DNA of 64,000 bases from Alphaproteobacteria bacterium. GTDB lineage: Bacteria; Pseudomonadota; Alphaproteobacteria; Micropepsales; Micropepsaceae. Position 1 is the first letter of the stretch; every line of letters begins with the position of its first letter. Positions 51,563 to 57,385 of this stretch are shown here, piece after piece. The position numbers and the translations under genes were made by a program. The DNA lies in NCBI GenBank assembly GCA_016124635.1, contig WGNJ01000017.1, positions 1-64,000 on the forward strand. The letters are read 5' to 3'. A model generated the notes under the pieces. That model saw only the letters and a program-made list of their open reading frames with translations. It did not search any database and was not told where the DNA came from.

Positions 51563-52807
51563 TCAAAAGTACTGGCGCAGCTGCACATACGCGATGGCGG
51601 GCTGCTCAAAGTCGGGAGGCGTGATGCCGGCGAGCGGTATGCCGCCGAACTCCGTGCGTGCCGGCCCAATGGGAAGCTGGGCGCCAACCACCAAATTCAG
51701 ATTCTCTCGCAACGAATACGTCGCCTGCACGATACCGTAGGCGCTGGCATCGTTCAGGTTGACGATCAATGTCGGGCTAATCTGAAAGAGCGGCGTCCAT
51801 TGAACCGTCGCGCCGGCGGCCACGTAGTCGCGACCGGTATTGTAGACCTGCCCACGCAACAGGCGATCGATCAGCGGAGCCGACAAGTCCGCCAGAGCGT
51901 AGTGCTTGGCCGAGAGGCCAAATCCATTGCGGTAGTATTCCGCGAACAGTGTGACATCGCGATCGAAAACCTTCGTCGCATCCGAGATATTGGCGATCGC
52001 AGATGTTCTCGTAGCCTCGTTGTTCACAAATGTGGGCAACACTTCGACGTTCCAACTCGCGCCCCCGAGCGACCCGCCAACTCCGACGCCTGCAACCCAG
52101 TCGCTGTGATCCCGCGCGACAAGCCACGTGGTGTGCAAATCGCCAATGGCGGTTTGAAAGTGCAGGGCGAACGAGCTGGCATTCGACGTCGGTTCGCCGC
52201 CCTCTCTCTTCGGCCTTGGCGCGGCGACGAATTGTAGGTCGGAACCATCGTCGAACAGCCACTGCGCATAGACCACGTCCGTGCCTGGCTTGTACTCGGT
52301 GTCGATGGCTGTCGGCGCGAATGGATCGAACAAGTCCATCGGGCGGAATACGAGGCCGCTTCCCCATGTCAGCGCCTGACGCCCGACGCGTACCACAAGA
52401 TTTGCGCCAGTGTATCCGATCCAAAGGCGATCGATGCGCTGTGTTGCGACGACGTTCTGATCGTCGACGAAGGTATCTGTGAGGTCCCACCAAGTGGCGG
52501 GCGGTGGCATGGGGAAGATAGCGAGCGCGTTGCGCTTGGCGATGAGGTCTGGCGTGTCGCCCACGTCAGCCGTGACTTGGTAATGCACGGCGAAACTCCA
52601 CTCGTCCCACCGCGGTTCCCAGGTCAGGCGCACATCGCCGAGCACGTCGTTGCGGTTCTGCTCGCCCAGCGCTGCCGAGAGGCTCGCCGAGCCTTCGGAA
52701 GCAATCTGATCGGCCAATTCGATGCGTCCGTGAACGTCTTCCGCTCGCGCCGGCAATGCCTGCAGCGCGGCAAGCGATGCGACGACGATGGCGACATTCG
52801 GTTTCAC
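51563..52807 (-). CDS. Outer-membrane beta-barrel protein of the Lol-like operon
   Basis: A 414-residue protein with a Sec signal peptide (cleavage after ARA, about residue 22) and many alternating-hydrophobicity strands ending in YVQLRQYF, a BAM-type C-terminus. The block RVGRQALTWGSGLVF recalls large porins of the DUF1302 kind. The GTG start overlaps the ATPase stop by 4 nt. As the last gene of the operon it probably forms the outer-membrane end of the transport path, or an assembly site for the cargo. A family name cannot be given with confidence. Confidence 0.82.
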   Translation of the reverse strand: MKPNVAIVVASLAALQALPARAEDVHGRIELADQIASEGSASLSAALGEQNRNDVLGDVRLTWEPRWDEWSFAVHYQVTADVGDTPDLIAKRNALAIFPMPPPATWWDLTDTFVDDQNVVATQRIDRLWIGYTGANLVVRVGRQALTWGSGLVFRPMDLFDPFAPTAIDTEYKPGTDVVYAQWLFDDGSDLQFVAAPRPKREGGEPTSNASSFALHFQTAIGDLHTTWLVARDHSDWVAGVGVGGSLGGASWNVEVLPTFVNNEATRTSAIANISDATKVFDRDVTLFAEYYRNGFGLSAKHYALADLSAPLIDRLLRGQVYNTGRDYVAAGATVQWTPLFQISPTLIVNLNDASAYGIVQATYSLRENLNLVVGAQLPIGPARTEFGGIPLAGITPPDFEQPAIAYVQLRQYF

Positions 52808-53514
52808 GCCGGTTCGGCCTCTGCCAACTTTCTTCGCTCGTCCGATGTAATCCCGCCGTCGCTGATTACGATGTGACGGCGGGTGCGGCTTATTACGCGC
52901 GCGTCGTGCGTCGCCATCAAAAACGTGGTTCCGAGTCGGTCGTTCAATCCCGACATCAAAGCGATCAAGTCCTCGGCCGTTTTGGTGTCGAGATTGGCCG
53001 TCGGTTCGTCGGCGAGCACGATCGCCGGCTTGCTTGCGAGCGCACGCGCGACCGCGACGCGTTGTTGCTGTCCACCCGAAAGGCGGGCTGGTCGCCGATT
53101 CTCGAGGCCCTCCAGGCCAACATCTCGAAGCACCTCTTTAGCGCGGGCTCGGCGAGCGGCGGCTTCGACACCCATGAGTTGCAGGATGAACTCCACGTTT
53201 TCAACGGCGGAAAGGACCGGGATCAGGTTGTAGGCCTGAAATACGAATCCAATCTTACGGAGCCTCAGATCTGCCAGTGCGTTTGCGTTCAACGCAGTGA
53301 TCTCGTGGCCTTCGATCTTGATGCTGCCCTTCGTCGGGCGATCGAGACCGCCGATGGCATTCAGCAGCGTCGTCTTGCCGGAGCCGGAAGGCCCGGCGAG
53401 CGAGGCGAAGTCGCCTTTGTCAATCGTGAGATCGACGCCGCGCAGGGCGGCGACATCGATCGTGCCAAGACGATAGTGCTTCGTCACGCCACGGCATTCG
53501 ACGATTGCGGTCAT
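52804..53514 (-). CDS. ABC transporter ATP-binding protein, LolD/MacB type
   Basis: A 236-residue ATPase. Walker A is GPSGSGKTT near residue 40, the signature LSGGQQQR near residue 143 and Walker B AIVLADEPT directly after. The sequence is of the LolD/FtsE/MacB class that pairs with FtsX-type permeases. The start MTAIVECRG is chosen for the usual N-terminus of this class. It would power the two permeases encoded immediately upstream and is coupled to the beta-barrel gene by a GTGA overlap. Confidence 0.94.
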   Translation of the reverse strand: MTAIVECRGVTKHYRLGTIDVAALRGVDLTIDKGDFASLAGPSGSGKTTLLNAIGGLDRPTKGSIKIEGHEITALNANALADLRLRKIGFVFQAYNLIPVLSAVENVEFILQLMGVEAAARRARAKEVLRDVGLEGLENRRPARLSGGQQQRVAVARALASKPAIVLADEPTANLDTKTAEDLIALMSGLNDRLGTTFLMATHDARVISRTRRHIVISDGGITSDERRKLAEAEPA

Positions 53515-53525
53515 CTTCTCCCCCC

Positions 53526-54758
53526 TCAGATTGCCGCTCTGGCCATCGCTTCGACTGGGCTGACTTTCGACGCCCGCCGGGCCGGCCAAAGGGTTGCAAG
53601 CACGCTCATCACCCACACCAAGAGGCTGTACAGCGCAAAGTCGGCCGGATTGACGTGCAAGTAGAGAATGTGGCCAGCGCCGACCATTTCAGCGCCGCGG
53701 CCCAGGAATCCCAGATCGAGGCCGTTCGGGAACGCCTGTACGCTGAGCAGTGCGAGCACAACGCCGAGGGCGACGCCAACGCCGATCAGCAATGTCGATT
53801 CCAGAGCGACCTCGAAGAGCACGAGACGCGGGCGCATGCCGAGCGCCTGCAGTAGGCCGAACTCGCGCGTGCGTTCGAACACGGCCATCAATTGGGTGTT
53901 GACGATGCCGATCGCCATCAGGGCGAACATCGTCCAGAGCCACATCAAGATGAACTGATTGAAGAGCGTGCTGACGGCGTATTCGAGCGGTGCGATCGTA
54001 GCCCAGCTTTGGATGTCGAGGCCGGGTGCCGCCTTGCGCAAGCGCGCCACGAGCTCGGGCAGCGCGTCGTCGCTTCCGGAATAGGCCACAACTTCCGAGA
54101 TGCCGTCCGCGATGCCGGTCAGCGTTTGAACGGTCTTGATCCCTGCGAAGGCGAACTCATTTTCGGTTTGCTCCGGTGCGGCGAAGACGCCGACAACCTC
54201 AAATGCGCGTTCGGCCAAGTGGCCGTCCGCGGCTTGAACCATCAAAACGACGCGTTTGCCGACACGAGTCTTCAGGCGCCGTACAAGATTTCGTCCGAGA
54301 ACGATGCCGGTGTCGTCGGCCCCGGATAGATATCGGCCGTCCCGTACTTGTGATGGAATTACCGAGACTTTGCGCTCTGCGTCCGGTGACGCCCCGATGA
54401 GCGTGACCGGAAGGGTTTTGTATTCGCTTTGGACGATGGCGCCGACGCGGACACGTGATGCGAACGTTTGGAACTCCGATGATTTCAGCAATTGTTCAAG
54501 ATCGCCGGAGGGCGGCGCCATGCGATGGGCGACCGTCGGATCGTCCAGATAGCCTTGTGCATGGATCTCGATTTGGCCAGTCGTCAGTTTCAATGTCGTA
54601 TCGCGGCTGCTTCTTGACCAAGCTTCCAGGAGCACCGCGAAGGATAGGATAGACCAGAGACCCACGCCGACCACGAGTATCGTGATGACCGTGCGTCGAG
54701 GATTGCGCCACAGGTTGCGCCAAGCGAGCGGTAAGAGCAGCCGGAGACGACTCATCAT
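53526..54758 (-). CDS. FtsX/LolC-type ABC permease, second of two
   Basis: A 410-residue permease with the MacB/LolC topology: an N-terminal helix (after RLLLPLAWRNLWRNPRRT), a large periplasmic domain of about 200 residues, then three C-terminal helices. The block ERTREFGLLQALGMRP is the coupling segment of the FtsX family. The ATG overlaps the stop of the first permease by 4 nt; a second ATG directly after it is an alternative. It is a paralogue of the gene at 54755, so the transporter is probably a heterodimer like LolC/LolE. Confidence 0.93.
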   Translation of the reverse strand: MMSRLRLLLPLAWRNLWRNPRRTVITILVVGVGLWSILSFAVLLEAWSRSSRDTTLKLTTGQIEIHAQGYLDDPTVAHRMAPPSGDLEQLLKSSEFQTFASRVRVGAIVQSEYKTLPVTLIGASPDAERKVSVIPSQVRDGRYLSGADDTGIVLGRNLVRRLKTRVGKRVVLMVQAADGHLAERAFEVVGVFAAPEQTENEFAFAGIKTVQTLTGIADGISEVVAYSGSDDALPELVARLRKAAPGLDIQSWATIAPLEYAVSTLFNQFILMWLWTMFALMAIGIVNTQLMAVFERTREFGLLQALGMRPRLVLFEVALESTLLIGVGVALGVVLALLSVQAFPNGLDLGFLGRGAEMVGAGHILYLHVNPADFALYSLLVWVMSVLATLWPARRASKVSPVEAMARAAI

Positions 54759-55975
54759 GACGCCCTCATTGCCGAAACGGGGCATAAGCTGCGCACGCGC
54801 AAGTAAGGAACAATCCCCGCCACGATGATTGCCGTTCCGATGGCCAAAGGTCCGGCGAGCGCGCTCACGGCGTCAAGCTGCGGATAGATTGTCGCCGGCA
54901 TATGCCAGCGAGAAAACAAAGCCTCCGCGCTGGGAAATGAGATTCCATCGCGAGCAACCCAGGCGGTGATCGCGCTTCCGAGCGCGATGCCGAGAGCAAC
55001 ACCGATGCACGCAAGGAGCAGCAGTTCGATCCAGATCATGCGACCGATCTGTGCGGGGCGCATGCCGATCGCCATCAGCATGCCGAACTCACGCGTGCGC
55101 TCGAGCACCGACATTAGCAACGTGTTCAAGATGATGAACACGACGATGACGACGAGGCTCACATACATGAGAAGAGAAAAGCTGGCGTCGAGAAGGATGA
55201 CGTCGTTCAGAGCAGGCTCCAATTGCGCCCAGTTGCGAACGACGAGCCCTTTCTCGTGCGCAGCCGCCCGAAGCTCGGGCAAAGCGGATTGGATGTCACT
55301 CAGATGGCGGCCAGCAATGGCGATGACATTGGCGCGCTTGCCGATGGCGAAATCCGTCTGGAAGCGTGTGAGCGGAATCTCGACCACTTGACGGTCCGCT
55401 TCCGGCGCGCCGGTCGCGAATAGACCGACGACAGTCAGCGCGTCTGCCGCAACCGATCCATCTTCGGCCGCCCCCAACATGATCAACTTGTCGCCGAGCG
55501 ACAATTTGAGATTGCGTGCGAGCGCCGCTCCCAAAATTGCGGCGTCCGTGTCGCCTTCCCGCAAATATCGGCCTTCGACGATCGTCTTGTGGAGCGTCGA
55601 AACCTCGGCCTCCTTCGACGGATCGACGCCAAAGACCGCGGCACCGTAGCTGCGCGGTCCGTTCGACAAGACGACGTAGGTGGTCGCTCGTGGAGCGGTC
55701 GCGGTGACGGCCGGCATGCCCTCCAGACGCGTCATCAATGCTTGCGGGTCGCTGATGGCCTTCCGGATATCGGGATCGTCGCTGTAGCCCTTAGGTTGAG
55801 CTTGCGCGAAGCCATCCATCAACTTGAGCACGCTTTCTTTCATCGTGCCGTAGGTGCCCAGCTGCAACGAGAGCACGAACACGGTGATGGCTGACGCCAA
55901 CACGATCGAGGTGAGACTGAGCGCCGTGCGGTGCGGCTGACGCCAGATGTTCCGCCAGGCTAAGTCAAACAGCAC
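54755..55975 (-). CDS. FtsX/LolC-type ABC permease, first of two
   Basis: A 406-residue permease with the same layout as its neighbour: DLAWRNIWRQPHRTALSL before the first helix, a large periplasmic domain, three C-terminal helices, and the block ERTREFGMLMAIGMRP. The GTG start is 3 bp after the LolA-like gene's stop. Similar but non-identical permeases point to an asymmetric LolCE-like complex that extracts cargo from the inner membrane. Confidence 0.93.
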   Translation of the reverse strand: MLFDLAWRNIWRQPHRTALSLTSIVLASAITVFVLSLQLGTYGTMKESVLKLMDGFAQAQPKGYSDDPDIRKAISDPQALMTRLEGMPAVTATAPRATTYVVLSNGPRSYGAAVFGVDPSKEAEVSTLHKTIVEGRYLREGDTDAAILGAALARNLKLSLGDKLIMLGAAEDGSVAADALTVVGLFATGAPEADRQVVEIPLTRFQTDFAIGKRANVIAIAGRHLSDIQSALPELRAAAHEKGLVVRNWAQLEPALNDVILLDASFSLLMYVSLVVIVVFIILNTLLMSVLERTREFGMLMAIGMRPAQIGRMIWIELLLLACIGVALGIALGSAITAWVARDGISFPSAEALFSRWHMPATIYPQLDAVSALAGPLAIGTAIIVAGIVPYLRVRSLCPVSAMRAS

Positions 55976-55978
55976 GAC

Positions 55979-56737
55979 TCAATTCCTCGGATTTTGAAGA
56001 TTCGACAGGGTGAAGAGATAGGCCGGCTCGGATTTGTCGAACTCGCCGGACAGCGTCTCGATGCGCGTCCATTTTCCCGGCTCGTCGGAGGGCCGCATGG
56101 TCATCACCTTTGGATAGGCGCGACCGCCGACCGGACCGACTTGCTCCGTCGTCATCTCGCGCACCGGCTTCATATCCTGGTCGAAGTACGTTTCGGCCAA
56201 CAGCACGCCGTCGTCGCGCACTTTGACGACTTGTTTGCCCCATACGACCGGCGCTCCTGGTTTCGGGATCGCCTCGATCGTGTAGATCGTATGCCCATTG
56301 TCCGTTTTCGTATCGATTAGGCGATGCGTGTATTTGGTCAAAAGATCGTTCGCCTTTGACAGGTCGTTGTAGGAGAAGTCCGAGCCCATCCACGACTGCT
56401 CCATCATGCTGGCCGGGAGCTTGATCACCTGATTCAGTTTGGGGTTGAACACCCAGGTGTCGTCGCCGAGCTTGAGCGTCGCGTTACCGGCGTCTTGGGC
56501 CGGTGCTACGAAGCGGACGAGCGCATCGTCGTCGCCGCGCGTCCAAGCCTTCATCCGAAGCGAGCGCTGCCAATCTGGGCGATGGACGGTCATCGCGACC
56601 TCCGTCGTCGAGCTGTTCGCCCGCCAATTGTCGTAGGCTGCTCTGAGAAGTGCTTCGGCGTCCGGCGGCGCTGCCGATGCGATGGAGGCGGAACACCAAA
56701 TCAGCGAGATCGCCATCAACCAATGTGCTGTTTTCAT
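55979..56737 (-). CDS. LolA-like periplasmic lipoprotein-sorting protein
   Basis: A 252-residue protein with a Sec signal peptide (MKTAHWLMAISLIWCSASIA, cleavage after ASA) and a mature domain of the large outer-membrane lipoprotein-sorting (LolA-like) type. The block DDTWVFNPKLNQVIKLP followed by MGSDFSYNDL is typical of the group that accompanies LolCDE-like or RND exporters rather than canonical LolA. It would shuttle a hydrophobic or lipidated cargo across the periplasm. The start overlaps the TetR stop by 4 nt. Confidence 0.9.
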   Translation of the reverse strand: MKTAHWLMAISLIWCSASIASAAPPDAEALLRAAYDNWRANSSTTEVAMTVHRPDWQRSLRMKAWTRGDDDALVRFVAPAQDAGNATLKLGDDTWVFNPKLNQVIKLPASMMEQSWMGSDFSYNDLSKANDLLTKYTHRLIDTKTDNGHTIYTIEAIPKPGAPVVWGKQVVKVRDDGVLLAETYFDQDMKPVREMTTEQVGPVGGRAYPKVMTMRPSDEPGKWTRIETLSGEFDKSEPAYLFTLSNLQNPRN

Positions 56738-57360
56738 TGTTCCGATTTCCCTGGTTTTTTCGCGCCTACTCCATCGAACATGTTCGAGAGAAACGTGCGC
56801 ACCCATGCTTTGGCGTCGAAGGACGGATCGAGCCAGTACTGCAACATCAATCCGTCCACCGCACCGATCAGCATGGACGCTAGAACGTCCGGATCGACGG
56901 TCGGGTCGATCTCACCGCTCGTCTGACCCGTGCGAATGAGTGCGGAAACTTCATGGCGATAGTTCGCGTAAAGCATACGCATCGCCTTTGCGAACCGCTT
57001 TCGCGTTCCACTCTTGGCGGACGCTGCCCAGACCTCGAGGGTGACCGGGTACAAATTGACGCGGTCGACCAGTGCGCCAACGGTTGCCTCGGCGAAGGCG
57101 GCGAGTTGCTCGCGAACGCCGACCGCACCTTGGATATCCGCAACGCTCGCCTGCAGAAGCTGAGCTTGGAACCACTCGAAAACCGCGTAGAAGAGGTCTT
57201 CCTTGTTCTTGAAATAGTCGTAGAGGGAGCCCTTGCTGACGCCTGCAGCTTCGGCGACGTCGTCCATGACGGTCGCTTCGTATCCCGTGCGGGCGAACTG
57301 ATGGGCCGCCGCCTCCAAGATCTGAAGGCGCTTGGCCTTGGGGTCTGCTGCGCGCGCCAT
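56734..57360 (-). CDS. TetR-family regulator of the Lol-like operon
   Basis: A 208-residue TetR regulator beginning MARAADPKAKRLQILEA. The helix-turn-helix is at about residues 12-55 (FARTGYEATVMDDVAEAAGV, GSLYDYFKNKEDL). It is first in the operon and overlaps the LolA-like gene by 4 nt. The palindrome at 57374-57385 in its promoter fits autoregulation. The frame extends upstream, but that part is Pro/Ser-rich and lacks a ribosome-binding site, so the ATG at MARAAD is used. The inducer is probably a hydrophobic compound handled by the system (inference). Confidence 0.9.
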   Translation of the reverse strand: MARAADPKAKRLQILEAAAHQFARTGYEATVMDDVAEAAGVSKGSLYDYFKNKEDLFYAVFEWFQAQLLQASVADIQGAVGVREQLAAFAEATVGALVDRVNLYPVTLEVWAASAKSGTRKRFAKAMRMLYANYRHEVSALIRTGQTSGEIDPTVDPDVLASMLIGAVDGLMLQYWLDPSFDAKAWVRTFLSNMFDGVGAKKPGKSEQ

Positions 57361-57373
57361 TATCGTTCCGACC

Positions 57374-57385
57374 GACTGGTCAGTC
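57374..57385. promoter_or_regulatory. Candidate operator of the TetR gene
   Basis: GACTG-GT-CAGTC, perfect 5-bp arms, inside the longer GACCGACTGGTCAGTC. It lies 14 bp upstream of the TetR ATG. Confidence 0.5.

Follow-up and report, generated by a model that had tools for sequence, protein, structure and literature searches.

A TetR-linked cassette of a type VII ABC transporter, a LolA-like carrier and an outer-membrane barrel: a probable export pathway for a hydrophobic compound

Results

Six closely packed genes encode the parts of a Lol-like transporter

The window analysed here, a stretch of 64,000 nucleotides from contig WGNJ01000017.1 of an alphaproteobacterium of the Micropepsaceae (assembly GCA_016124635.1), carries on its minus strand (51563-57360) a cassette of six genes. 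These encode a TetR-family regulator, a LolA-like periplasmic carrier of the PF17131 type, two permeases (PM1 and PM2), an ATP-binding cassette (ABC) ATPase and an outer-membrane beta-barrel. An initial annotation of the window had described six genes that overlap or lie at most 11 bp apart, and all six were found, with spacings in operon order of -4 bp (tetR/carrier), +3 bp (carrier/PM1), -4 bp (PM1/PM2), +11 bp (PM2/ATPase) and -4 bp (ATPase/barrel). Its assignments of a TetR protein, a non-canonical carrier, two paralogous FtsX/LolC-type permeases, a LolD-type ATPase and a barrel of 414 residues with a signal peptide and a final Phe were likewise upheld by the matches given below. Promoter and terminator scans gave signals no higher than those in shuffled sequences.

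The carrier gene (55979-56737) encodes 252 amino acids with a signal peptide. Its product matches PF17131 over residues 68-248 and model positions 1-183 of 184 (E-value 2.3e-46; 158 bits against a curated cut-off of 30), which was the sole Pfam family at E<=1; PF03548, the canonical LolA family, gave no match, and the similarity between a carrier profile and the genome's own LolA was not significant. The carrier resembles the solved structures 9tp6, 4z48, 3bk5 and 3buu. In a profile comparison it was also remotely similar to DUF1329 (117 columns, 80% probability), and the PF17131 model matched the genome's DUF1329 protein slightly under the cut-off.

PM1 (54755-55975, 406 amino acids; FtsX 3.8e-17, MacB_PCD 6.6e-14) and PM2 (53526-54758, 410 amino acids; FtsX 3.7e-16, MacB_PCD 1.2e-10) each pass the Pfam cut-offs for the MacB_PCD periplasmic domain and the FtsX C-terminal domain, which marks both as type VII (MacB-like) permeases. 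The best NCBIfam model for both is lolCE (TIGR02212), at 95 and 101 bits against an equivalog cut-off of 362, and the nearest solved relatives of PM1 are LolF, LolE and LolC. The ATPase (52804-53514; ABC_tran 3.5e-35) is similarly placed, since LolD (TIGR02211) scores highest among all NCBIfam models at 223 bits, under the equivalog cut-off of 308 bits. As a minor correction, its start is most likely the ATG at 53514, giving 236 amino acids, rather than an upstream GTG.

In a tree of 52 rows, PM1 (98/98) and PM2 (86/84) each occupied one side of a branch, and both clades contained members from Alpha-, Gamma- and Delta-type proteobacteria, Acidobacteriota, Vibrio and Bacteroidota. The genome's own lolCE fell apart from both, with long outgroup branches. 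Judged from this tree, the split between PM1 and PM2 predates the divergence of these phyla. At two loci (L154 and L165) the permeases are fused into one 834-amino-acid protein, with the gene order carrier-ATPase-PM1/PM2-barrel; such a fusion speaks for an obligate heterodimer. At the most distant loci (L112-L114) both permeases scored best with the PM1 profile.

The last gene (51563-52807) encodes a protein of 414 amino acids with no family match in Pfam (E<=1) or NCBIfam. An AlphaFold2 model built from a 76-sequence alignment was confidently a barrel (mean pLDDT 94.9, pTM 0.89), with approximately 18 strands as counted from the strand list; it superseded a weak model from 7 sequences (pLDDT 71). 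The N-terminus is helical and of the signal-peptide type, and the C-terminal residue is Phe. The nearest solved folds found with Foldseek were the MOMP, AlgE, OmpM, chitoporin and Occ barrels, at a TM score of ∼0.5 and ∼10% identity. The most conserved stretch, GRQALTWGSGLVFRPMDLFDPFAP (GRQALTWGSG..FRPMDLF.PFAP), lies mostly within a long non-strand segment (residues 145-175, strands 5-6), which is plausibly, on the model, an inward-folded loop. A lipobox pattern was present in 7 of the 76 barrels and is hence not a family feature. Membership of DUF1302 (PF06980) was considered and rejected, since the protein stayed under the curated cut-off, with a best member at E 0.0072 and 3 of 7 members at E<=10; the profile-profile comparison covered 18 columns only (25% probability), with a common short motif, RxGxQxxxWG. 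The single match in a sequence search of the PDB was judged to be due to chance.

The five transport genes recur in a fixed order

With the barrel as anchor, a scan of 84,980 species genomes yielded 80 loci in Pseudomonadota, Thermodesulfobacteriota, Acidobacteriota, Myxococcota, Denitrovibrio and Aminicenantes records, and the gene content of each locus was determined by profile searches over every reading frame. The order carrier-permease-permease-ATPase-barrel on one strand was present at 59 of the 80 loci, and at three more (L082, L090 and L097) with one split frame. This means that 62 of the 66 loci with enough flanking DNA keep the order carrier-PM1-PM2-ATPase-barrel; the cassette was incomplete at four (L064, L073, L085 and L101), and the 14 loci that end at contig edges agreed as far as the sequence goes. 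Because the first scan was anchored on the barrel, the search was repeated from the carrier. Its two best matches in plasmid records, from Vibrio campbellii and Persicobacter (Bacteroidota), carried the full set in the same order. A barrel search of the plasmid records gave no match. The V. campbellii cassette (L116:7887-13131) lies on a 2-Mb replicon that is recorded as a plasmid and is probably a second chromosome. Conservation of the barrel beside the transporter, on which the initial annotation had made its interpretation depend, was thus seen with both anchors, and at least four bacterial phyla contain the five-gene set in its fixed order.

Pairwise distances of the five proteins over 54 cassettes were correlated at 0.85-0.94, as would be expected from joint inheritance, a figure to which shared ancestry alone contributes. 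In the window's own order the cassette is accessory and patchy. The barrel was present in 8 of 96 sampled genomes, which all belong to a single family, and was missing from the ten other genomes of the window's genus. Strong carriers in the same 96 genomes were restricted to those with a barrel, and lay ∼3.9 kb from it or on contigs too short to tell. One genome (G024; locus L166, G024:C118:14000-27000) has a weaker carrier, two permeases and an ATPase with no detectable barrel, and its carrier frame is seemingly shortened, which suggests a degraded or barrel-less cassette. In a sample of 398 Pseudomonadota genomes the barrel was matched in 56, most of them from one family, and the loci inspected there show the cassette. 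That family (f47) has small genomes (∼1.2-3.1 Mb) and contributes most barrel matches of the phylum sample, unlike the patchy spread elsewhere.

A predicted operator precedes the collinear tetR gene

The tetR gene (56734-57360; 208 amino acids, TetR_N 6.7e-19) begins, as a minor correction, with the ATG at 57360. It shares 4 bp with the carrier gene and has collinear orthologues in many relatives. About 10 bases upstream of the tetR start lies an imperfect palindrome, GACTGACCAGTCGGTC (57370-57385), which is the predicted TetR operator on the basis of a comparison of related loci (consensus GACYGACYRGTCRGTC) and a genome-wide site scan. Its 14-bp core, ACYGACYRGTCRGT, was matched exactly 11 times over 1.07 Mb of related loci, each time directly before a collinear cassette tetR, at loci ranging from Alphaproteobacteria to Thermodesulfobacteriota. 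Three further loci (L035, L065 and L089) have the core with one mismatch near the same place. In the window's own 4.5-Mb genome this palindrome was the sole site with zero or one mismatch, and exact core matches in the other genomes checked all fell at the cassette. An operator of the system's own, as initially claimed, is therefore borne out by comparison. The confinement of core sites to the cassette indicates, as far as site distribution can tell, a local and dedicated regulator. A wider regulon defined by the operator was rejected: six genomes contained no exact second site, and one-mismatch sites were no commoner than those of a reversed control. Collinear tetR is limited to part of the relatives; in the remaining cassettes tetR is divergent and poorly related, or was not detected.

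Canonical Lol genes and other carriers in the same genome

A check for a separate canonical Lol set found LolA on contig C29 (PF03548, 5.6e-27) and a lolCE permease on contig C6 (486 bits against the cut-off of 362), with a LolD-like ABC ATPase adjoining it. The contrast that had been drawn initially between the cassette and the housekeeping Lol pathway holds with respect to the TetR protein with its operator and the separate canonical genes. The presence of two distinct permeases, which had also been cited, does not by itself set the cassette apart, as E. coli has two distinct permeases, LolC and LolE.

The window's genome contains two further PF17131 carriers. A second, divergent one (G000:C10:14000-32000; L030:5296-10622) is followed by a 413-amino-acid barrel-like protein ending in RYF, and genes for two FtsX permeases and for an ABC ATPase carrying a YHS domain at its C-terminus lie divergently to this pair; the whole may be a sister system that handles a different substrate, perhaps one linked to metals. 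The third (G000:C6:144000-160000; L029) stands beside an MMPL pump, together with a phosphopantetheinyl transferase-like protein and a 1681-amino-acid reducing polyketide synthase with a condensation domain, a gene neighbourhood suggestive of both the biosynthesis and the export of a polyketide or lipopeptide lipid. A classical DUF1302-DUF1329 pair is also present (G000:C8:8377-11019; L115), so that both barrel/carrier types coexist in this genome.

Genes flanking the cassette

Among 98 flanking proteins only TetR proteins (12 of 98) and AMP-binding acyl-CoA synthetase-type enzymes (4 of 98) recurred. One such synthetase-type gene directly follows the barrel at L035 (L035:9313-11070). The largest flank cluster (22 loci) resembled antisense frames over the cassette and was discarded.

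Discussion

A probable export pathway for a hydrophobic compound

We consider it fairly probable that the cassette is a self-contained, TetR-controlled and ATP-driven pathway that exports a hydrophobic compound, either a lipid or an apolar metabolite, across the envelope. Its gene content and order, the permease pair, the dedicated barrel, the dedicated operator and the separateness of canonical Lol all come from sequence comparison and structure prediction. The complex, the outward direction, the substrate class and the TetR ligand we infer from protein families and analogy, as the 'exporter', 'one substrate' and 'acceptor' of the initial annotation were too. On this account a PM1-PM2 heterodimer with two ATPase copies would work by the mechanotransmission of type VII ABC transporters, as their fold implies, and would pull the substrate out of the inner membrane, at its periplasmic leaflet, and place it in the hydrophobic groove of the PF17131-type carrier. 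Once filled, the carrier would cross the periplasm and hand its load to the cognate barrel, which would take the place of LolB and admit the substrate into or through the outer membrane. Bound to the palindrome at the head of the operon, TetR would keep it repressed until released by a ligand, which is probably the transported substrate or one of its precursors.

Since flanking genes do not recur, the substrate class is argued by analogy: PF17131/DUF1329 carriers work with MMPL/RND pumps in systems linked with apolar compounds, and YbbAP is evidence that lipids can be handled by type VII ABC transporters. On this basis we regard a lipid or hydrophobic small molecule, and not a lipoprotein, as the likely cargo. 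Several points weigh against this interpretation. The 98 flanking proteins include no recurring substrate gene or biosynthetic cluster, lipoproteins (LolCDE), heme (HrtAB) and signalling are also served by type VII transporters, and the likeness of the barrel to DUF1302 is confined to a motif and does not amount to full-length homology. More tentatively, the cassette might represent an undescribed and ancient class of lipid exporter, in which an obligate-heterodimer ABC engine, a LolA-fold shuttle and an 18-strand barrel insert or secrete a specific lipid.

An alternative to which we accord a minor but real chance is a second, dedicated lipoprotein pathway that extracts one or a few special lipoproteins, which the barrel then puts at or on the cell surface. 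The kinship of PM1 to LolF, LolE and LolC and of the ATPase to LolD is in line with this, as is the proposal that Borrelia BBJ23-29 handles lipoproteins or another non-polar ligand (PMC13078400). However, the scores lie far under the LolCDE equivalog cut-offs, canonical Lol coexists in the genome, no recurring neighbour gene could encode a lipoprotein, and the PF17131 family pairs with MMPL pumps too (PMC10470040, PMC6304351).

Efflux of a toxic hydrophobe (for example heme or porphyrin, a hydrocarbon or a membrane-active antibiotic) instead of delivery of an endogenous lipid is in our view rather improbable. HrtAB, a type VII transporter, handles heme, and a TetR protein with its own predicted operator would suit such a role. 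In P. gingivalis, the MMPL/LolA-like/TetR operon responds strongly to iron and hemin (PMC10470040, PMC10434189), and AmeABCD confers tolerance to monoterpenes (PMC6394551). On the other hand, no resistance or catabolic genes recur nearby, and such efflux would be a variant of the export pathway proposed above, with which it shares its mechanism, and not a separate machine.

It seems very improbable that the cassette takes up a lipid or hydrocarbon, or moves it in the retrograde direction, from the outer to the inner membrane: the barrel has a porin-like fold and some hosts belong to hydrocarbon- or lipid-degrading groups, but type VII ABC transporters with LolA-type carriers extract from the inner membrane to the periplasm (LolCDE, YbbAP: PMC12646458, PMC5985334). 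That the cassette is the organism's ordinary, essential Lol pathway deserves next to no credence and is refuted by the canonical lolA and lolCE genes elsewhere in the genome; all four transport parts are of the same fold classes, but the cassette is absent from most genomes of the same family.

How lipids other than lipopolysaccharide and lipoproteins reach the outer membrane or cell surface is a long-standing question. A specific-lipid exporter would, if true, be a further outward route beside Lpt-type bridges and RND/MMPL systems, and would give the type VII ABC family a carrier-plus-barrel branch. As the cassette is compact and self-contained, occurs in several phyla and in cultured species, and has its own regulator and operator, its substrate, direction and mechanism are directly testable. 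It also cautions that an annotation as 'outer membrane lipoprotein-sorting protein' need not mean that the gene product sorts lipoproteins.

Comparison with known systems

The cassette belongs to a known kind, the Lol-like type VII ABC transporters. It shares with LolCDE-LolA(-LolB) a LolD-like ATPase, two FtsX/MacB-type permeases and a LolA-fold periplasmic carrier. It differs in scoring far under the equivalog cut-offs, in having a PF17131 instead of a PF03548 carrier and a dedicated barrel in place of LolB, in its TetR control, and in an accessory, patchy spread alongside canonical copies. P. gingivalis LolA3 (9tp6), a PF17131-related protein matched by the carrier, is without the LolA Arg and the LolB Leu and shows very weak interaction with LolB (PMC13103446).

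MacAB-TolC has the same MacB-type permease fold and periplasmic mechanics. In contrast, the cassette has no TolC, its permeases and ATPase are separate, it uses a soluble carrier and not a sealed conduit, and the Pfam matches of its six genes include no HlyD/MacA-type adaptor. YbbAP is evidence that hydrophobic molecules other than lipoproteins can be extracted by a type VII ABC transporter, and YbbAP-TesA differs in its single 10-helix permease, its hydrolase partner and the lack of a carrier and a barrel (PMC12646458).

The MMPL/RND systems likewise combine a pump for hydrophobes, a LolA-fold periplasmic protein and a barrel, sometimes with a TetR protein, and their known inducers or substrates are mostly apolar. 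In AmeABCD, DUF1302 and DUF1329 proteins serve an MMPL-type pump for monoterpenes (PMC6394551), and the DUF1302/DUF1329 system PP_0765/0766/2018/2019 of P. putida is required for growth on Tween 20 (PMC10866462). In the TOL_3187/3188 system of T. oleivorans, an MMPL-LolA fusion is up 42-fold on the n-C28 alkane, the only condition under which the adjacent porin is expressed (PMC6304351). The TetR-MMPL-LolA operon PG1178-1181 of P. gingivalis, responsive to iron and hemin (PMC10470040, PMC10434189), has a hypothetical protein in the barrel's place (PMC10434189). Unlike these, the cassette has a two-permease ABC engine instead of an RND engine, and its barrel resembles DUF1302 at motif level only. 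On the interpretation favoured here, the cassette would be their ABC counterpart.

In the open-access literature, with most subscription papers and all preprints outside the search, we found no description of the exact ABC-carrier-barrel set, in agreement with the initial annotation, to which no characterised example of the exact six-gene set was known. The nearest system is Borrelia BBJ23-29, an export cluster proposed on computational grounds only (PMC13078400). It too joins a MacB-like ABC transporter, a LolA-like carrier and an outer-membrane barrel in one cluster, and differs in its Omp85-family barrel, one homodimeric permease, two TPR proteins and the lack of TetR (PMC13078400). The barrel of the cassette is not of the Omp85 type, as it has no Pfam match at E<=1 and its fold is nearest to the porin/AlgE-type barrels.

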